The notes under the pieces: generated by a model
What the model was told of the DNA's origin: nothing
What the model saw: only the letters and a program-made list of their open reading frames with translations
Database searches by the model: none
Assembly (NCBI RefSeq): GCF_032884065.1
Contig: NC_088864.1
Span: 22,062,994-22,126,993 of the forward strand
DNA from: Artemia franciscana
Taxonomy: Eukaryota > Arthropoda > Branchiopoda > Anostraca > Artemiidae
DNA: 64,000 nucleotides
Reading direction: 5' to 3'
Shown: piece after piece, positions 1,441 through 63,634 of the stretch
Layout of the letters: each line of letters starts with the position of its first letter
Position numbering within the stretch: the stretch's first letter is position 1
Translations under genes and position numbers: made by a program

Positions 1441-4400
1441 GTTGGTTGCGCGTTTGAGTTAGTCTGGATTTCTAAGAGTAGGTTATAATTTGTATGGGCT
1501 TGCTCTAGATTTCTACACACTGATCTCCTTATTTCGTCGGATTGCTCTTGATTTTTAAAGATTGGCCTTGATTGCTTTAGTTTGGTCTTGATTTTTATGA
1601 ATTCGTTAAAATTTCTAGGGTATGGTTATGACTTGTATGTGGTGGTTTTGATCTTTAGATGATACCCTTGATTTCTTTTGATTGGTCTTGATTTCTACAG
1701 GTTGATCAAGATTTCTAAGGTTTAGTCTTCGTTTTTACGTTTGCGTCTAGATTTTGATGTACCGGTCATGATTTCTAAGATTGTTCTGAATTTTATATGG
1801 TGATCTCTTGATTTCTACGGTTTGGTCTTGATGTGTATGGTTTGCTCTGAATTTTTAGGGTTGACCCCTGATTTTCATGAATTCGTGTTGATTTTTATGC
1901 ATTGCTTTTGATTCCCAAGAATCCGTAAAAAATTTTTGAATTGGCTATGATTTCTAGGGGAATCTTCAGGATTTTTAAATGTTGATCTCTGAATTTCTAG
2001 GGTTTGGTTTGGATTTCTATGCATTGGTCTCTTGATTTCTATGGTTTGGTCTAGATTTCCATGGTTTTTCTGGATTTCTACATAACGATCTCTTGATTTT
2101 TTCAGATTGGCCATAGTGTTAGAGGCTGAACTTAATTTCTACAGTTTAGTCTAGATTTTTATGGTTTGTAGTGGATTTCCATGATTTACTCATGATTTGT
2201 TCGGATGGGTCTTGATGACTATATGGTTTAGTCTGGATCTCTAGGGTTAACTGTTCTTGCCTTTTAGAGGTTGGCCTAGATTTCTTTGGTTCAGTCTAGA
2301 TTTGTATGAATTCGTTTGGATTTCTAGGGTCTGGTCATGATTTTTGTGTATTGATTTCTAAATTGATTTTTAAAGTTTGATCACGGTTTTTACGGTTTGG
2401 TCTGGATTTCAATGCACTGGTTATGATTTTTAAGTCTTGATTTCTAAGGACTGTTCTAGATTTCTTTATGTTGATCTCTTTAATTTTGTGAGTTCGTCTG
2501 GTTTTCTAAGTATTGACAATGATTTATGTGGAATTGCTAAAGATTTTTACATATTGACCTTTTGATTTCTTCGGATTGGTTATGATTTTTAGAGGTTGAC
2601 CTTAATTTCTTCAGTTTGGTCTTGATTTTTTTGAATTAGTCTGAATTTCAAGGACCTGGTCATTATTTCTGTGTATTTGTTATAATTTTTAGATGCCGAC
2701 CTTGGTTTTTTGTATGTATCTTGATTTCTTAAAGGACGATCTTCATTTCTAGAGTTTGGTCTTGCTTTTTACTCCGTAGTCCAGATTTTTATGCATTGGT
2801 CATGATGTCTAGGAATTTGTATGAATTTCTATATGTTGATCATTTCTTTATGATGATCAAGACCGGGGTACGGTCTTGATGTATTTGGTTTGGTCTGGAT
2901 TTTCAGTGTTAACTCCGATTTTTATGAATTTGTTGATGTCTGTGAATTGCTTGCGGTTTCTGTGGATTCATCTGGATTCCTATGTAGAGGTTATAATTTC
3001 TATAGACTGGTTTGGATTCCTAGAGTTGGGTCTTAATTCTTATGAGATCGCCTGGATTTCTACGTAAAATTTTGATTTTGAAGGATTATTCTAGATTTCT
3101 GAATGATGATCCCTCGATTTCTGGGGGTTGGTTTTGATTCTAGGGTTTGGTATTTCTTTGCATTGGTCTTCTGATTTCTGTGGGTTGGTTTGGTTTTCTA
3201 GGGTTGTTCCTGATTTTCATGAATTTTTCTAGATTTCTATGCATTAGTTATGATTTCGATGAACCAGTCTAGATGTCTAGAGTTTGGTCTTGATTTTTAC
3301 CAGTTCGCCTGGATATGTATGTATTGACTTTTATTTTTAAGGATTCTTCTGGATTTCTGTATATTGATCACTTGATTTCTGAGGGTCGGTCTTGATTTCT
3401 ATGGTTTGGTTTGGATTTCTACTATTGATTTCTTGATTTCCTCAAACTGGTTGTAATTTTTAAAGGTTGGCCTTGATTTCTATAGTTTAGTCTTGATTTT
3501 TATGGTTTTTTGTGGATTTCTATGAACTGGTCATGATTTTTAAGGATTGTTCGAGATTTCTTCATATTGATCCTATGATTTCATCATATTGATCTTGATA
3601 TCTATGGTTTGGTCAGAATTTTCAGGGTTGGCCCTGATTTTTATGAATCTGTCTGGATTTCTATGCATTTGTTATGATTTATATGACTTCCCCTAGATTC
3701 CTAAATATTTTCCTCTTGGTTTTTTCGGATTGGTCTTGAGTTTTTAAGGTTGGCATTGATTTCTACAGTTTGGTCTTGATTTTTATTAATTCGTCGGAGT
3801 TCCTATGTACTGGTCGTAATTTTTAGAGAATGGCCATGATTTCTATAGTTTAGTCTTGATTTCTAAGGTTTGTTAATTATTTCTATGTATTAGTCTTGAT
3901 TTGAACTGTTTGGTCTTGACTTCTAGATTTGGTTTAAATTTTTACCTATTGATATGGACTTCTAAGGATTATTCTGAATTTCTAGATATTTATCTCTTGC
4001 TTGTCGCAAGTTCGTCTGGATTTCTATGGTTTGGTCTGGATTTTTTGCATTGGTCTCAATTCCTATTGCTCGGTCTGTATTTTTATGGTTTGGTCTGGAT
4101 TTTTAAATATTGGACCGTTGATATCTTTGGGTTGGTCATAATGTTTGAGGTTGACCTTGATTTTGTCAGTTTAATCTTCATTTTTATGGTCTGGTGTGGA
4201 TTTCTGTTCCTTGGTCATGAATTATAAGGATTATTCTAGATTTCTACTATTGTTCTCTTGATTTCTTCGTATTGGTCTTAATCTCTATGGTTTGGTTTGT
4301 ATTTCTAGGGTTGGCCCTGAATTTTATGAATTAGCCTGGGTTTTAGTTCAGTGGTTATAATTTCTATGAATCTCCCTGGATTTCTATGCATTGGGTTTAA

Positions 4401-4760
4401 TCTCTATGGGAGTTTTCTTGATTTCTATAGATCGATTTTGATTTCTTCCGTTTTGTCTTGATTTATGGGTTGGTTCTGATTTCTATGTATTGGTCTTGTT
4501 TTCTAGGGATTGTTCTGGATTTCTATATATTGACTTATTGACTTCTTCGGATTGGTCTTGATATCTATGGTTTGGTCTAAAATGCTATGGCTGACCCTGA
4601 TATTTTTGAATTCATGTGGATATCTCTGCATTGTTATAATTTCTATGTACTGGTCATGATTTTAGAGGTTGTCCTTGATTTCTACAGTTTGTTCGTGGAT
4701 TCCCTAAGTTTGCCTGGATATCTACGGTTTAGTATTTTGTCTGTATTTCTGTATGTTGTG
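1441..4760 (+). repeat. Degenerate minisatellite, unit near 20 bp
   Basis: About 3.3 kb of imperfect head-to-tail units of roughly 19-22 bp. A typical unit reads GATTTCTATGGTTTGGTCTT, with the ending varying between GGTCTTG, GGTCTGG and GGTCATG. Units are rarely identical, so the array is old or was built from diverged subtypes. Short open frames inside (for example 3901-4227 and 4587-4802) are products of the periodic sequence. Both flanks are other tandem or dispersed repeats. Confidence 0.9.
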
Positions 4761-4799
4761 GGAATAAGGGAAAGGCTTGTTCATGAAAATATCTCTTTT

Positions 4800-5600
4800 T
4801 AACAATCAGTTGGATTTTTGCAAAATCACTGGAAATAAGGAAAAGAGAGTGTGAAAGAAAAATCGTAATTTAACAATGAAATGGCAAATTCTCGCCATTC
4901 ATGTAAAAATAATGGTCATTTAGGGTTTATAAGGTTATTTTTGCGGGGAAAAGCTTGAAAACCCATTCAGTGTGAAAGTATGCACTATAGGGCGTCATTG
5001 GGGTGGTAGATTGTGCCTTGCTGGCCTCAATTGCCAGGAGTCACCAGAAGAAATGTTATTGGGAATTTTTCGTTAAGTTTTAACGATCCATTCTAGTGCA
5101 AACGATTATTTTTGGAGAAACATGTCTCAAAATGTCTTGTGTATGAAATTAGTTGCCAGAGGGTGCCGTTTACCTGGTCTTAAGTGTGAGACTCTGGGAT
5201 TTGCCATGGAACATCACAATCTAACGATGAAATGGCAAGTTTTCGCTGTTGAAATTAAAAAATGGTTATTTTTAGTTTATAAAGTTATTTCAGTGGGTAA
5301 CAGGATAAAAACCTCTGAAGTGTGATAATATGCTCCAGAGGGTGGATTCTCCAGAGGTGATATGTCCCTCATCAGAGTGTTAGATTCTGTCAAGCTGGCC
5401 CCCATAGCCAGGAGTCAACAGAACAAACGCTATTGGAAATTTTTCATTATGTTTAAACGATTGATTCCAGTCTAACATATATTTTTGTAGGAAAATATCA
5501 GACAAATGCCTTTAGAATGATAAAGGGTGCCAGAGGGTACCGTGTGTCATCCATAGTGTGACACGGCGAAGTGAATTACCTTGGACTAACATGTTCTACA
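4800..5600 (+). repeat. Two tandem copies of a ~375-bp unit
   Basis: Two diverged head-to-tail copies. Paired landmarks are AATGAAATGGCAA near 4875 and GATGAAATGGCAA near 5225; GCCAGGAGTCA near 5032 and again near 5410; and GGGTGCCAGAGGGTACC near 5525 against the similar GAGGGTGCCG near 5160. The frame 5122-5325 lies inside the unit and is not supported as a gene. Confidence 0.75.
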
Positions 5601-31776: not shown

Positions 31777-33265
31777 TTATAATTTATTCAAAAAATAATT
31801 TTTTATTCTTACTTTAAATAACATAAGGTTTTCAGAACACCTAACACTCTCTGGAATTGAGTTCCAAATAACAACACCTACATGTTTAATCATAAACCCA
31901 GATCGCGTTGTATGCCTGATTTCACTAGTCAGCTGATCAGAGCTCCTAGTAGAATAATCGTGATAATTTGAATTATATCGATAAAAACTTTTTAAATATT
32001 GAGGAGACAATCCATTTAAAACCTGGTATACAAAAATTAAAATCTGTTGAGATTTAATTAAATCAATATTCAAAATATCTAAATCTCTAAAACAATCTCT
32101 AGTACTACCACACGCAATATACTCACCCAAACTTCTAATTGCCTTATTCTGCATAATCTGGACCCTTTTTACATGACTAGAAAAATTGCTTGCATACAAT
32201 GAACAACCATACATGGACAATTGAATAATAAATTGCTTTCAGGACATGTAGAGGAAAAAAATTATGAAATCTTCTTAAAATACCGACTCCGCAAGCCAAT
32301 TTTGAAGATAAAACTTTGCAATTATGAATCCAACTAAAATTTACATCAAAATAAAATCCTATATATTTACATTGAAAAACCTGATTAATGGAAACACCTT
32401 GTAAAAGAATACTATGACAATTATTTACAACTTTACCAATTCGACTAAATATCATACAATTAGTCTTCTCAGTATTCACTGCAAGAAAACTATGCTTTGT
32501 GAACTGAGATAAATTCTCCAAAGCTACATTAGTTATCTCTATAAGATCTTCGACAGATTCCCCAATCACTGTAAGCGCTGTGTCATCTGCGAATGATGTA
32601 ACTACGGCACCAGGAATGTAAAAACGCATTGTATCCACGTATATAAGAAACAGTAAAGGTCCTAATGCTGAACCTTGGGGCACTCCACAATTCACATTGT
32701 AGGGTTTCCCTACCACATCATCTATCATAACTTTGATGGACTTACCATGCAAGTAAGACCTAAACCAATCCAAACACTTCTCACGGACTCCCAAACAAGC
32801 TAGCCTACTTAATAAAAGATTAAAATCAACGGTATCAAACGCTTTTTTAAAATCTATGAACACAGTAAGAGGGATAAGATTCCTTTCTAGGGCACTATTA
32901 ACGCACTCCATTAGATGGTATGCCGCATGAACAGTTGAATGTTTAGTTCTGAAACCGAACTGTGACTCACTTAATATTCCGAGCTTGTCTAAATATTCAT
33001 ACAGCTGTCGATGTACTATTTTCTCGTATATCTTTGAGAATAGTGGTAACAAGCTTATAGGTCGATAGTTCGTCATATCTTGCTTATTGCCCGATTTGAA
33101 CAGTGGTAGGACCTTTGCTTGCTTAAGCGCTTCAGGGAATTGGCCGACTTCAATTGACAGGTTAACGAGGTAGAGAAGACATGGTAGTAGATACACTGAA
33201 ACTACTTTGAATGCTTTCAGATTCAAACCGTCAATACCAGCAGCATTTGACTTTAAATTCTTCAC
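31777..33265 (-). pseudogene. LINE ORF2: reverse transcriptase and C-terminal region
   Basis: Reads KSNAAGIDGL near its start, VLPLFKSGNKQDMTNYRPIS (the usual RT entry motif with YRPISLLP), FRTKHSTVHA, VFIDFKKAFDTVDF (first catalytic Asp), GVPQGSALGPLLF, and FADDTAL (the catalytic FADD box). The first frame stops at 32177. The C-terminal region continues in another frame from 32220 to 31777 (QNKAIRSLGEY, WNSIPESVR, FKVRIKNYFL), as is typical after the RT domain in CR1/L2/Jockey-type elements. At least one frameshift near 32200 separates the pieces, so it cannot encode an intact polymerase. Confidence 0.92.
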
Positions 33266-34803
33266 AATTTTTGTTAATTCTTCAATTGACGCTTTTTCAA
33301 ATTGAAATTTATGATGTTCACCTCGATTATCTTCAAAGAGCGTGTCACATTACGCTGGGTCTCCGTGAGAAGTGTCTTCCCTGATTCTACTTCCAATACC
33401 AGAGAAGAATTTACCAAACTCGTCAGCAATCTGCTGCTTATCAGTGACTGTAACACCCTCGACAGTGATAGCATTTATGAGGCCATAATGTTTACCTGTG
33501 CCTTTAATCACGGCGTTAATGGTCTGCCAAGTGCCCCGTATATCACCTTTTTGTTCATTAAATTTTTCGATGTAATATTTTTTTTTTTTTTGAACGTCTT
33601 AGCTTATTCACTAAATTTTGTTGACGAATATATTCATTTTTACTTTCTTCAGATGAGTCATTTAAACTTTTAAAGAAGCAAGCGTTACGAGCATTTATAG
33701 CTTCAACAGCTTCATCATAAATCCAGGGTTTTTGGGGGATATCTCGTTCTTTTTTCCTAGTAAGTTTCAAGGGACAAGCAGACTCAAATATCGGATTAAT
33801 TATCCCAAGAAAGTTGTCGAGGGCACGCGAGGGATCCGGTTCTTCATACACTTTCTCCCACGATATTACACTTATTTGTTCACGGAACTCATGTAAATTT
33901 GACGGCCGAAGATCTCTTATAAGTTTACGCCTAGACTTTTCGTAAGTCGGGCTCCGTTGCTTTATCGTACATGAAACAGGAAGATGATCAGATCCCGGAT
34001 GGATCATGACATCACAATAAGAATCAGGAACTAAATTTGAAGGGAGAAACACATTATCAATAAGAGTAGCAGAATGTTCAGTTATTCTAGAAGGAAGGCG
34101 ATTCATTGGAAAATAACCATGCGATAACATCAAGTTAAAAAACTCAAAATTATAGCTATTCAAACATAACAAATCAAAATTAAAATCACCCATGATTATG
34201 CATTCATTTTTTACCGACAGAATTTTACATAAATAATCATCAAATAAATCAAGGAACTCAACCGAGGGAGTGCTAGGTGGCTTATAAACCAAACAAATTA
34301 CTATCTTTTTATTCTCAGAAATTTTTTCTGTGGAAATTGTATATGGAAATTGGAAATTGTACCTTCCCTTCAATCCAAAGGCATAAGTCATCCCTTTCTT
34401 CAAATGTTATTCCATTTTTCAACAAAAAAGACAAACCTCCTTGTCTCATCCGATTTCTAACCTTCGAAATCATTTAGTAACCTGGAAAAATGTAAGACGA
34501 GAGACAGCTGTCCATCGATAAAAACGTTTCACAAATACCTACTACATCAATACTACTATTCATAGCAGACAAAAAATTTTCAATATCCTCAGACAATGAC
34601 GTAACATGGCAATTCCATTCAGACACACGAAAACTCTTATTTTCGTTCCGTATTGCAAATTCAATTGATACATACTGACTTTTTCTTACTGGCTCAGGGC
34701 ATTTTACAACACTATCTTGAGCAATTTTACACTCTAAAATTTCATTAACATCTAAAGCATTATTTTCTAATTCATCCAACTGATCCTTCTGGTGTAACGG
34801 CAA
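33266..34803 (-). pseudogene. LINE ORF2: AP-endonuclease domain and linker
   Basis: The N-terminal piece (34803-34474) contains VSEWNCHVTSL and VVGICETFL, the usual start of an exonuclease-endonuclease-phosphatase domain (catalytic Glu in ETFL). After a stop and a frame change, 34403-33558 continues with IIMGDFNFDL and GSDHLPVSCTI, the GDFN and SDH catalytic boxes. The linker before the RT continues in further frames (33474-33274). Three different frames are used, so indels have broken the ORF. Confidence 0.9.
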
Positions 34804-57089: not shown

Positions 57090-57490
57090 TTGTTCATCTG
57101 GTCGTCAGGAATCTTTAAGAAGTTCCCCAATGAAGGAGAATTGTCGGAGGGAATTTTCCATGGGGGACGGGAATTTTTCCTGAGGAAAATTTTTTATTGG
57201 GTGGATTTCTGGAGCCGAGAATATTCCATGGGGGGGGGGAGATTTTCTTATAGGAAAATAGTCCGCGGGAGGAACTTTCCGGGAAAAATTTTCAAATATA
57301 TTTGAATTTAAAAATGCTCGATTATTATTAATATGCATCGGGAATTTCCCATGAGAAAGTAGGGAGGGCTCCATGAAGGAATATTTTAAGGGGGAATCTT
57401 ATGCAAGGAGAATCTTCCACGGAAAATGAGTCTTCTAAAAAGGGGTAATTTTCCGCGAGGAAATTTTCCGGGGGGATTTCCTTTCTTTTG
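57090..57490. repeat. G-rich repeat fragment related to PR copies
   Basis: Short imperfect units such as GGAATTTTCCATGGGGG and GGGGATTTCCTTTC, like the G-rich blocks at 9270-9610, 15130-15390 and, in reverse, 29280-29680. Probably a detached piece of diverged PR copies. Confidence 0.55.
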
Positions 57491-58468: not shown

Positions 58469-58955
58469 CATTGTAACAATAGTCAGAGCGCCAGATTCTG
58501 TATCTCGCTTATTTCGATTAGTACCCATGCCGGAAGGTACAAAAATGTTAAGGGTGGATCCCATGGTAGTCGACCATGCTGAAAACGACTATCGTAAGGC
58601 GCATGTTCGCCGTTGGGGCGTTTCTGAGATATAGGCCAAAAACACCAAATTTGACTTATAATGGGGCTCGACGATTCTAATTTTTTTTACAGATAAGATT
58701 GGTCAATCCAGCGTACTCTTACATCAATAGAAAGAAGAGACTTGGGGCTACATGAATATGATTTTTTTGTAAAAAAAAATAAAAAATAATACAGTTTTTA
58801 CTGCAGTTTAAAAAAAATCAGATTTTTGTCAACAAATTTCTAACAGAAAGGCTAAAAACTCAAAATTTTTTCAAGATGAAGTTTTTTTTATGTTAAAAAA
58901 GAAAGCCAGTTTCATTCCTAACACATTGAGCTAAGAAATTAAGTTTAAATCATTG
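58469..58955 (+). repeat. Left terminal inverted repeat
   Basis: Pairs with 63140-63634. Shared blocks from outside in: GCGCCAGATTCTGTAT, CCATGCCGGAAGGTACAAAA, GTAGTCGACCATGCTGA, GGGGCGTTTCTGAGATATAG, GCCAAAAAC, ACTGCAGTTT, AAAGGCTAAAAACTC and TTGAGCTAA. Confidence 0.92.
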
Positions 58956-59279
58956 TATCTGGGGGGTCTGCAACTTTCTTAGCGAGTGTACCCGATAATA
59001 GGAATTTTGATTAGTAACCTGCTACCTAGCGGGAAGTTGATTGATAAGCTAAGCAGAAGAAATTGATAAGCAGAGGATGAAAAATACAAAGTGAGTCAGG
59101 TAGGCCAAGATAAAAAAAAAAAAAAAAAACTGATTTGCTGATGGATGATAATGAAGAATATGGCACAAATTTGGAAGATAAAAAAAATGTAAGAAATAGA
59201 ATTTTTAAAAGCACTTTTGGTGTTGTTAAGTTGGCTGGCGAAAGGAGTCTAAATTTTTTTTGCAGAAGTAAGAGACTTA

Positions 59280-59486
59280 ATGAAAGTAACTTGCAAAATT
59301 AAATATCACAGGAAACTAGGTGATACTGACTCCTTTAGATTTATAAGGACTGATCAAAAGGCATCTTACATTGATCAATCAGATTTAGTATTCGAACTTC
59401 CAGTTCCAGTGAAAACCCGTGGGACTGCTTGTCGAATGGAATATCTGCAATTTGAAATTGATATGATAATATTTAATCTAGAATAA
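59280..59486 (+). CDS. Small unidentified frame inside the TIR element
   Basis: 68 codons from ATG, in the same phase as the main coding frame 380 bp downstream. It contains KVTCKIKYHRKLG and FELPVPVKTRG. No motif recognised. It could be an N-terminal exon or remnant of the main protein, or a chance frame. Confidence 0.3.
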   Translation: MKVTCKIKYHRKLGDTDSFRFIRTDQKASYIDQSDLVFELPVPVKTRGTACRMEYLQFEIDMIIFNLE

Positions 59487-59864
59487 ATGATACTTGCTGG
59501 AGAATAAGTAGTAAATGTGTTCCTTTTTTTTTGTACTTATTTATGAAAGTAGTCAAAATTACAACACAAAGTGGCCAAAGGTACATGATCTATGCTGTAC
59601 CTCTGACCAGTTGATGTATATTTTTTGACCTGTGTTTACTCTAAAAAAATAATGCAATACACGTTCCAGAGATGAAATGTGTGTTTTAAGAACGAAAGTT
59701 GGTTATGAATCTAATGTATCATTTCATAATGAAATACAGTCTCGAACGAAAATGGTCTCGAAGTCTGGAAGGAAAATGTTCCTAAAAGCAACGCGTTTTA
59801 CTTGCCTTTCCTTCATTAAGCACCAAACAACCATGCAACAGTCGACAAATCTCTGCGAACGTTC

Positions 59865-62768
59865 ATGGCGACAAGTAAAGCTGTCGGATGTTACGATACG
59901 GTGTTCACGCAAGATCTCTTCATTTATCAGCTAGCACAGGGAGTGAAAAGTAAATACCCGGATGACTTCAAAAACGTAAACCTATGGATAGAAGGCTTCC
60001 ACCTCCTGCTCAACTATCTCAAGGCAGTTGGTAAGATAATGGACAGCTCCGGAGTCAAAGAGATTACAGTGCAGGCAAAGCTGCTGCTTCCTGGTACTTG
60101 CAAAAAGGTATTTCAAGGGAAAGGCTACTACCAAGCTATCAATGCCTACTGCATACTGTACGAGATCTTGCCAGCCCTCTACTGGGAGTCCTTGAAAGAG
60201 TATTACTCTGAAGCACAAGAAGAATTATCCCGTCTGGACCAGCTGGGTAGTGCCATTGAGTTATTCAGGACTTCATTGGCAAACGGGGCTAACGCGCGAA
60301 CTGCACTTCAGGAGGCAAACGATACCTTATTTACTTTGGCTCCCATAATGAATGCCTTCGACATTCTGCGAAACACGTCACCCACGTTTGCTTTCTGGCG
60401 GCAGTTCTTTGAAATGCTTGAAATAGCGATGCAATTCATTCATGCTGAATCAGACTGTGACTGGGAGCCTCATTTGACAGTAATTGCTCGGATGTTGCCA
60501 TACTTGGCGGCGACTGACCATCCTCAGCATACAAGATGTCTCATACAGTACCTATCAGACATGCAAAGTTTGCAACAAACCTTTCCTGATGTACACAGGA
60601 AGTTCATGAAAGGATACTTAGCAGTGAAGAGAACGCACACCAGGTTCATGGTCACCTGGTCCGATCAGATACTGGAATGTACAGTGAACAAGGATGCAAA
60701 GACGACGGCCGGAATGATAGGAGAACAAATGGATTAGAGACAGACTGAAGCTTGGATTCTTACCATACCGATTTTCGCTGCCATTAGCAATGGTTTCCTG
60801 CATGTAGTCAACGTATCCACAAAGACATTGAAACATCACGAAGACAATCAGTTGACGACGACGCGATTATAACTTTCGCGAGATAGACTTCGAGACATTT
60901 TCACTACATGTGGCAATCAGTTCAGCAGAGTGGACTTCGACCTGACGAATATTGTGACTTCAGAAGTTGTGGACGATGAGAAGATTGTTTCTGATATTAC
61001 TTGCGTAGCCACAAAAGTAAAAGAGGTGGTTGAGGACTTTCTGTGCAACAGGAAAGACGATGTGAAGAAGGTTGCACTCCGAACTTTCCCTTCAGAGAGA
61101 AAAACTCAGAAAGTGAAGGGTGTCCCTAGAACGGATCTCCTGAGCTCTGAAGCAACAGCCTTGAAGAGCATCATTACTGCTAAGTTGAGCTACGGTGAAG
61201 AAAAGGGGAAAGCAGTTGCAAAGATCCTCACAAAAGAGATTCTTCTTTTCCCTCCATCCATTTTTGAATATCTTCCGCAACAATCAACCAAGACTGCCTC
61301 TGGATGGAAAATGAGGAAAGGGAACAAAGCTGTGCGGTTGAACTTGCTACGAAAAAAAAGGAGGACTTGCAGGTTGGCCGGCGACTTTGAAATCGAAAGA
61401 AACAACATCAGCTACAGTACACATCATTAACCTAATGTCCAAGATGAGGTCATATCGGCCTGTCAGGTTTGAAACAGTCAAATCCTTCGCCGAAAGATTG
61501 CTTCTATCGTTGCTGAATGATCTTCCAGTTGGTATTCCTGAAGTCCACATTGTTGCAGATCGGTGGCAACGGGCTGTTTGGGAAGCTCACGGACACCGGA
61601 CAGTCCATCTCTTTGAAATCAGCATGCAGACTCCAAATGAGGGAAAGGGAGAAATCTCCAGATTTCCACTCCTAGCACAATTGAAAAATGGGATGCCGTA
61701 CTTGCAAGCTCAGCATCTAAAAGCCGACTCCTCGAAATTTTGTATGAAACCTGGGAGCAGATGGGTGATCAGCCTCCGAAAGCCCTCAACATTTTTCTCT
61801 CAGGTGGGTTCAAGTAGAGATTCAAAGCGTCTCTGGTCAAGCGTGGCTGCAGTCTAACTTTACCAGAACACTGTGACTACGAGGAATGCTTGTCCTCCAG
61901 CCACGAAGAGGCTGACCAACACCTTATGACACATGCCAAGCACGCTAGCCGTTGCGCTTGTAGCATTTTTGTGAATGCCAGCGACATAGACGTGGCAGTA
62001 GCCTGTGTTCATTTTTTTTAAGCGCTTCAAGCTGAAAGACTGAGCGAACTTTTCTTTAACTTCCTGACTTACATTATCCCAGTACATGAGCAGGCGGATG
62101 GAGTTCACTTGTCCAAAGAGGAGCAGGTTATATTATCGTTCGTGCACTGTCTGTCAGGGTGTGACACAACGAACTTTTTTTTCGGCGTCGGGAAAGATTC
62201 TTTCTTAAACACCGCGGCGTCTCCAACGTTTGCCACAAAAATGGTCTCTGTGACGGAGCGAATCAAGGGTGCAGAAGGGAAGCTTTCAGTCGACGCGTTT
62301 AGAGAAGTTTACGACCTATCAAAATCCCTGGTGATTGAAATGCGCTGTAAACAGGCCGGTTTCAATTCACTGGCCAGTGTAAGGGCTTACATTTGGTGCC
62401 AGAAACAAGAAGTGAGAAGACTGCCACCTTCTGACGACACCTTAAAGCCATGCATACGAAGAGCCATATTCGCTACACGGATAATCTTGTCGTCAGTACA
62501 GGCTCGGCCGAGCATTCCAGATCCACTCCTCCATAAACGGAAGATGGCTGAAGGGGGAGTAGATGCGCTTGTCTCAAGCTATAAAGAAGCATCAAGCCTG
62601 GAAGCTTACTGCAGATGCAAAAATGGAAGATGCCGGAAAGGCTGTAGCTGCTCAAAAATGAAAGGTTGCTGCAGCTTATGCTCCTGCCACTTAACGAAGA
62701 GGGCGTGCAGGGAGTCTGATGTTGCCCCATCTGAATTCTCGGAAGAAGAAAAAGAGGAATATTTTTGA
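59865..62768 (+). pseudogene. FEN/PIN-like nuclease with C-terminal CXC cysteine cluster, broken
   Basis: About 968 codons in one phase. In-frame stops are at 60735 (TAG), near 60867 (TAA), 61816 (TAG) and 62019 (TAA), and a displaced segment near 61355-61640 reads in another phase after an A-run. The N-terminal helical domain (59865-60737) has WIEGFHLLLNYLKAVGKIM, GSGVKE-like SSGVKE, KGYYQAINAY, and DQILECTVNKDAKTTAG. Then IPEVHIVADRW, FLSGGFK, SSSHEEADQHLMTHAKHAS, VNASDIDVAV, and FVHCLSGCDTTNFFFGVGK. The order E-E-D, D-x-D, G-C-D then G-x-GK is the acidic-residue and helix-hairpin order of Rad2/XPG/FEN nucleases. The tail, beginning YCRCKNGRCRKGCSCSKMKG at 62607, resembles a tesmin/TSO1-type CXC zinc-binding domain. 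Nuclease activity is inferred. Confidence 0.78.
62607..62720 (+). other. CXC-like cysteine cluster coding region
   Basis: Eleven cysteines within about 35 residues (CRCKNGRCRKGCSCSK, then GCCSLCSCHLTKRAC), followed by an acidic C-terminus EFSEEEKEEYF and TGA. The CXC/CXCX4CX4CXC-type spacing suggests zinc-dependent DNA binding, as in tesmin/TSO1 proteins. Confidence 0.75.
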
Positions 62769-63139
62769 AAGTTTTATTTGATACCTTTTAATTTTAATTA
62801 CAACAGGTCCCTAGTAGGTTACTATTACCCAATTTTACGGGCAGGCCGAGTAAGACAACTCCAGTGCGCCGACTGAATCTATCTGTGAAGCGGAATTCTT
62901 TCATGTAGTAAATATCTCAGTGGTATCAGTGGCAAAAAAAAAAACATTCTAAAAAAAACACTTTTTTGAGTCAACATCTTTTTTAAACCTATTTTTATTT
63001 TTAAGTAAAAGTTAAAAATTTTAAAAAGTTAGGAAGTTTAAAGTATTCCTACCCTTTGGAGAAAAACAAAATTATGTCCCTTTTCACGATTCGGCTAGTG
63101 ATCATTTCAGTGACACTACAAAAAAATTGAAGACCTTTT
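62769..63139. other. 3' non-coding part of the TIR element
   Basis: AT-rich sequence between the stop codon and the right inverted repeat. Nothing specific recognised. Confidence 0.6.
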
Positions 63140-63634
63140 AAAAATAAAAATAGTTTATATTTTTTAGCTCAAATTGTACAGAATTGAATGAACTTTCTTT
63201 TCGAATGTGAAAAAAAAAGTTCGTTACCTTGAAGGAATTTCGAGTTTTTAGCCTTTCTTTGAGATACTTGTCGAATTTTACAGCACTTATTTTGAAACTG
63301 CAGTAAATAGACAAAAAAAATAGTGTTTTTTTTTCAATTTAAAAATCATATTCTTGTAGATCTAGATCTCATCTTTCGATTGACATAACATTACGCCGGA
63401 TTCGTCAACCCCATAACTCGGAAAAAAAAATCCTGAATCGTCACGCTTAGTTATAGGCTAAATTTGGCGTTTTTGGCCTATATCTCAGAAACGCCCCAAA
63501 GGAGAACATACGCCCTACGATATTCGTTATCAGCATGGTCGACTACCCTAATATCCGTCCTCAGCATTTTTGTACCTTCCGGCATGGGTGGGTGCACGAT
63601 ACAGAATCTGGCGCTTTGACTAATAACGTCCCTG
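63140..63634 (-). repeat. Right terminal inverted repeat
   Basis: Reverse complement partner of 58469-58955. Divergence between the arms is visible throughout (roughly one position in four or five outside the best blocks), implying an old insertion. Confidence 0.92.

Follow-up and report, generated by a model that had tools for sequence, protein, structure and literature searches.

A decayed, formerly mobile DNA transposon of Artemia franciscana, most likely of the AcademX lineage, with a FEN/XPG-like motif order in the second half of its protein

Academ is listed among the DNA transposon superfamilies that have a DDD/E transposase (PMC9587614) and is described with 3-bp target-site duplications (PMC5199201). 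Two of its lineages are distinguished by the length of the duplication, 9 or 10 bp in AcademH and 3 or 4 bp in AcademX, which their author ties to the encoded helicase and nuclease, respectively (PMC10045372). One hundred curated Academ elements of bivalves have a mean length of 5565 bp (PMC10294476), and several DDD/E lineages carry accessory nucleases or helicases of differing kinds (PMC9587614). Here we describe an element of about this size in a stretch of 64,000 nucleotides from Artemia franciscana (contig NC_088864.1, positions 22,062,994 to 22,126,993; hereafter the window). We conclude that it is a decayed cut-and-paste DNA transposon that probably belongs to the AcademX lineage of the Academ superfamily.

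The element lies at 58480..63622 (5143 bp, coding strand plus), with boundaries set by the ends common to copies and by alignments. It starts with TAGTCAGAG and finishes with TGACTA. The original prediction had located an element at 58469..63634; an element is indeed present there, with bounds that had been drawn 11 to 12 bases too wide on each side. The 5' terminal inverted repeat (58480..58941, plus strand), found by repeat search, alignments, and shared ends, starts TAGTCAGAGCGCCAGATTCTGTATC, and the 3' terminal inverted repeat (63160..63622, plus strand) is ∼75% identical to it. The inverted repeats of ∼490 bp predicted to flank the region were thus recovered at ∼460 bp, 75% alike. A gapped alignment of window positions 58478-58941 with the opposite end of other copies gave ∼71 to 78% identity over ∼460 bp. 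The best ungapped arms were 58523-58688/63424-63589 (166 nt, 83%), and the outermost were 58480-58504/63598-63622 (25 nt, 96%). Compared with each other over 430 bp each, the two ends of the window copy were 75% identical, whereas the same end was on average 91 to 92% identical between ten copies, so the 5' and 3' ends were already unlike in the source elements. Terminal inverted repeats, one criterion for cut-and-paste transposons, are common to many copies of this element. A short way upstream of it, the window contains four short CGGGAATTTTTCCTGAGGAA-like units (family D1, 57148-57462).

We searched the genome (1.27 Gb, 6468 contigs) for relatives. The coding DNA at 61000-62600 was found in at least 40 places (43 rows; best 40 of 263 candidates scored), and protein searches returned at least 145 matches to the N-terminal half of the coding region (135 of 916 candidates scored) and at least 126 to the C-terminal half (105 of 1027 candidates scored). 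Nineteen fetched loci carry the element, and a pattern built on the ends detected both ends in 13 of them. Over 23 sources (the window and loci L009 to L030), the same pattern detected both ends in 15, which correspond to 13 independent bounded copies, as L013 duplicates the L011 insertion together with its flanks and L018 duplicates L016. The shared flanks of these two pairs suggest that the insertions were copied along with the surrounding DNA. When the ends themselves were used as query, 32 of the 40 scored end matches (best 40 of 513 candidates) had a coding match on the same strand no more than 8 kb away; three loci fetched from the other eight yielded two full elements and, over the 6 kb that were fetched, one solitary end. 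Of the 21 loci among L009 to L030 that hold the element, 20 contained both protein halves, L030 being without the C-terminal half; most of these loci had been picked with a query overlapping both halves. Several copies with the same ends therefore exist, and the ends accompany the coding part at dozens of sites. Coding regions without the ends, or ends mainly around unrelated sequence, would speak against an element; both were looked for, and with 32 of 40 ends linked to coding sequence the element withstood this comparison. A stretch of ∼320 bp (window 59480-59801) is missing at the same points in L020, L023, L026, L028, L029, L161, and L163, which points to a sublineage or to a deletion inside the element.

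An exact 3-bp duplication, a length within the 3 or 4 bp reported for AcademX, was present directly outside TAGTCA...TGACTA in 11 of the 13 independent bounded copies. Random re-pairing of the flanks (2000 trials) gave a mean of 1.7 matching duplications and a maximum of 7. For three insertions (L023, L024, and L026), we joined the flanks with one duplication and searched the genome for the corresponding empty sites. With L024, 38 of 40 scored rows (1275 candidates) spanned the junction, the remaining 2 being its own flanks, and all 6 of the sites that were fetched were uninterrupted across it. With L023, seven uninterrupted places aligned over 200 of 200 bases at 90 to 94% identity, and a single GAA target was read in 5 of 5 fetched sites. 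Empty sites for two of the three insertions demonstrate insertion with a 3-bp duplication. Together, copy number, duplications, and empty sites establish that the element is real and was formerly mobile, as anticipated by the original prediction of a DNA transposon bounded by terminal inverted repeats.

The protein frame of the element extends from 59820 or earlier to 62768, ∼980 codons, and is decayed. What had been taken for a single long coding frame is interrupted in the window copy by stops at 60735 (TAG), 60870 (TAA), 61815, and 62019 and changes frame near 61345, 61561, and 61640. Reading the plus strand, we assigned the N-terminal half to 59820..61340, with the stops at 60735 and 60870 and relatives across the genome. 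The FEN/XPG-like half begins at 61342..61560 in a shifted frame and continues, together with the tail, at 61639..62768 in the first frame again, with the stops at 61815 and 62019. The tail includes a cysteine-rich segment (62610..62708, plus strand, by frame reading; 10 Cys) that is possibly zinc or DNA binding; a Pfam search with the frame that holds it gave no match.

Parts of the frame are naturally open in other copies (486 codons of the N-terminal half in L030, positions 1368-2825; 395 codons of the C-terminal half in L022, positions 4298-5482), and the whole frame is open in none of the copies examined. Some stops of the N-terminal half are common to several copies (position 51 in 5 of 18, position 180 in 4 of 21) and define a sublineage consisting of L020, L026, L028, L029, and in part L023, which suggests that this sublineage was already broken when it multiplied. 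Between copies, differences at codon positions 1, 2, and 3 were 0.331, 0.332, and 0.337 in the N-terminal half (26 loci) and 0.352, 0.327, and 0.321 in the C-terminal half (30 loci), and they were likewise about even over the three positions in two noncoding stretches. Thus, no coding constraint is visible since the copies spread. From the shared stops and the codon-position differences, we infer that at least part of the family was mobilized in trans and that the sampled copies have decayed.

The C-terminal half displays the order of residues that had been predicted, acidic positions followed by GCD and GxGK. Frame reading of the window copy placed EAD at 61908-61916 and DID at 61983-61991 (together 61908..61991, plus strand) in FEN/XPG order, then GCD (62157-62165) and GVGK (62184-62195) in an arrangement resembling the FEN/XPG hairpin (62157..62195, plus strand); both placements were accompanied by an order test on L022. 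The first FEN-like acidic position is D in L022, L027, L035, and L036 and N in the window copy (61429). Copies in which the region is intact read HIIDLMSK, VHIVADRYDG, EADQ, HANDTDV, and SGCDTTNFFFGVGK. A pattern describing how the last motifs are ordered and spaced, without the first acid, was found in 69 of 73 archaeal FEN1 proteins. It also matched element copy L022, whereas 20,000 shuffled versions of L022 gave 0 matches. The archaeal set came from 80 of 118 fetched stretches, of which 73 had a frame 300 codons or longer. Among 372 background frames of the archaeal loci, the pattern occurred outside the FEN1 set in only four frames, all reading as FEN1 by their starts and motifs. The pattern was drawn up after both families were known, so this result is supportive and not decisive.

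The element thus resembles FEN1, XPG, GEN1, and Asteroid in how E-x-D, D-x-D, G-[CT]-D, and G-x-G are ordered and spaced. It differs from them in showing no significant profile similarity and in having its domain within a transposon protein whose N-terminal half and cysteine-rich tail are additional. Searches with the C-terminal half gave nothing of note in Pfam and no match in NCBIfam or PDB, and Pfam searches with 12 members of the copy alignment A1 returned two families at chance level (E values of 0.17 and 0.18, each for a single member). AlphaFold predictions made from single sequences, for pieces of the two halves, were uninformative, with predicted local distance difference test (pLDDT) scores below 40 (37.6 for the N-terminal half; 38.5 for window 61701-62525, a piece without the domain start). 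Of the FEN/PIN-like nuclease originally predicted, the motif order therefore stands, whereas comparisons with Pfam, NCBIfam, PDB, and FEN1 profiles gave nothing significant. Motif order supports calling the C-terminal half FEN/XPG-like. In viral contigs, thirteen stretches fitted a search pattern, none of which was confirmed as a relative of the element, and no relative was found in plasmids.

The genome also contains XPG-family genes. A genome-wide XPG_I search gave 15 rows, none at C-terminal-half places among the matches listed. Three XPG_I-positive places were fetched, and motif reading assigned two as Asteroid-like (L031, positions 2162-3097, and L032, positions 2075-2959, both on the minus strand) and one as GEN1-like (L033). 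L032 scored above the Pfam XPG_N cutoff, and L031 gave subthreshold XPG rows (E values from 1.3e-4 to 0.007). As the XPG-family genes of this genome match Pfam XPG models and the element does not, the element is at best a far outlier. Contigs C17, C34, and C19 carry, at several places, Asteroid-like XPG-family frames of ∼300 codons, some as equal-scoring pairs, which are possibly an expanded host gene family.

The original prediction had proposed a nuclease in place of a recognizable transposase. It had overlooked the ∼500 codons (59820-61340) that lie upstream of the nuclease-like part in the same protein frame across the family and that accompany it in 20 of 21 loci. This N-terminal half presumably resembles common animal transposon-like proteins. 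Short duplications of fixed length are the usual outcome of DDD/E strand transfer. The 3-bp duplications, the inverted ends, the description of AcademX, and the presumed resemblance suggest that the N-terminal half is a DDD/E transposase. PDB sequence searches gave nothing except one row with an E value of 0.75.

Altogether, the window element is consistent with the published duplication length and element size of Academ and AcademX, and its putative nuclease and transposase halves would fit the described nuclease and the DDD/E listing. Its likeness to AcademX lies in the 3-bp duplications, the inverted ends, the length of ∼5 kb, and a nuclease-like domain in the coding region; it is unlike AcademX in its broken frames and in the lack of a recognized first catalytic D of the DDD/E triad. 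The nuclease of the AcademX lineage (Kojima) is reportedly of the XPG type, and a full-text literature search joining Academ, XPG, and transposons found no paper. If the assignment holds, AcademH belongs to the same superfamily, yet it has a helicase and 9- to 10-bp duplications (PMC10045372), whereas the element has 3-bp duplications and gave no helicase match in Pfam searches. A new superfamily of DNA transposons, as originally proposed, is not supported, since AcademX, within a superfamily listed as DDD/E, is already described with a nuclease and 3- or 4-bp duplications and since the element has the large N-terminal half in addition.

We propose that the source element encoded one long protein in which a transposase half at the N terminus was followed by a FEN/XPG-like nuclease half and then by a tail rich in cysteine. 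The putative DDD/E transposase half would bind and cut the ends and join them to target positions staggered by 3 nt, after which repair by the host would produce the 3-bp duplication. The nuclease may trim flaps or branched DNA while the element is excised or joined. At least one sublineage would have multiplied when already broken, with the enzyme supplied in trans.

Several results weigh against this interpretation. Two of the 13 independent copies are without a matching duplication: L029 and the window copy itself, whose left flank CAA (58477..58479) and right flank ATA (63623..63625) differ in the flank comparison, so that no intact target-site duplication remains there. The joined flanks of L026 matched their own two flanks alone in the genome, and no empty site was found. 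No DDE domain was recognized in the N-terminal half by Pfam, NCBIfam, or PDB searches, and its sole Pfam row was the unrelated PF04464 (E value of 0.029; 13.8 bits versus a cutoff of 22.1). Inspection by eye of the three frames upstream of 59820 in the window, L029, and L012, and of a 1.9-kb insertion of L010, did not reveal the first catalytic D. As for the C-terminal half, hhalign against the 73 archaeal FEN1 proteins gave a probability of 0.07 and a score of 13.0, lower than that of a reversed decoy (19.7) and of no fewer than the top ten among 59 shuffled decoys; this null result is weak evidence either way, because the element profile has little depth (diversity 2.0) and was built from decayed copies. 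In an hmmsearch with the archaeal FEN1 profile, the printed rows were all shuffles.

The element might instead be a DDD/E transposon with an accessory nuclease from a different or undescribed superfamily, which we regard as unlikely. The match to AcademX was made by description, which leaves room for such an origin, and 3-bp duplications are also made by Harbinger and EnSpm/CACTA. Kolobok elements duplicate TTAA, which argues against a Kolobok origin. KolobokE, KolobokD, and KolobokP resemble the element in combining a transposase and an accessory nuclease, but the nucleases they carry belong to different types (lambda-exonuclease-like, DEDDh, or His-Me finger; PMC9587614). Moreover, the element has no match to Pfam DDE families, and the combination of a nuclease with 3-bp duplications is described for AcademX (PMC10045372).

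It is considerably less probable that the FEN/PIN-like nuclease is itself the transposition enzyme of a new superfamily devoid of a DDE transposase. The FEN/XPG residue order and the lack of a recognized DDE domain in the N-terminal half fit this proposal. Against it, the ∼500 further codons accompany the nuclease-like part in nearly all loci, short duplications of fixed length point to DDD/E strand transfer, and a lineage of a DDD/E superfamily is described with a nuclease and the same duplication length. The proposal keeps a low probability because the searches and models revealed neither a DDE nor a FEN fold. In its fullest form, the N-terminal half would not be RNase-H-like, the FEN/XPG-like half would cut, and the family with its relatives elsewhere would constitute a nuclease-driven superfamily with terminal inverted repeats, which we consider very improbable. 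Capture or copying of host FEN-family genes (Asteroid- or GEN1-like) between unrelated inverted repeats is the least credible explanation, for although XPG-family genes exist in the genome, one with a GCD-type motif, they match the Pfam XPG models that the element does not, and the recurrence of ends and coding part together in dozens of places already contradicts it.

Elsewhere in the window (32177-34406, minus strand), neighboring frames of 390 and 282 codons were read from their motifs as reverse transcriptase and endonuclease parts of a non-LTR (long terminal repeat) retrotransposon.

What looked like a transposon using a repair nuclease in place of a transposase is most simply placed in a group that has already been described. 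If the nuclease were nevertheless the mover, it would represent a new transposition chemistry. The Artemia element adds an abundant, well-bounded family with target-site duplications and empty sites and keeps in view the question of the role that the FEN/XPG-like domain plays in such elements.

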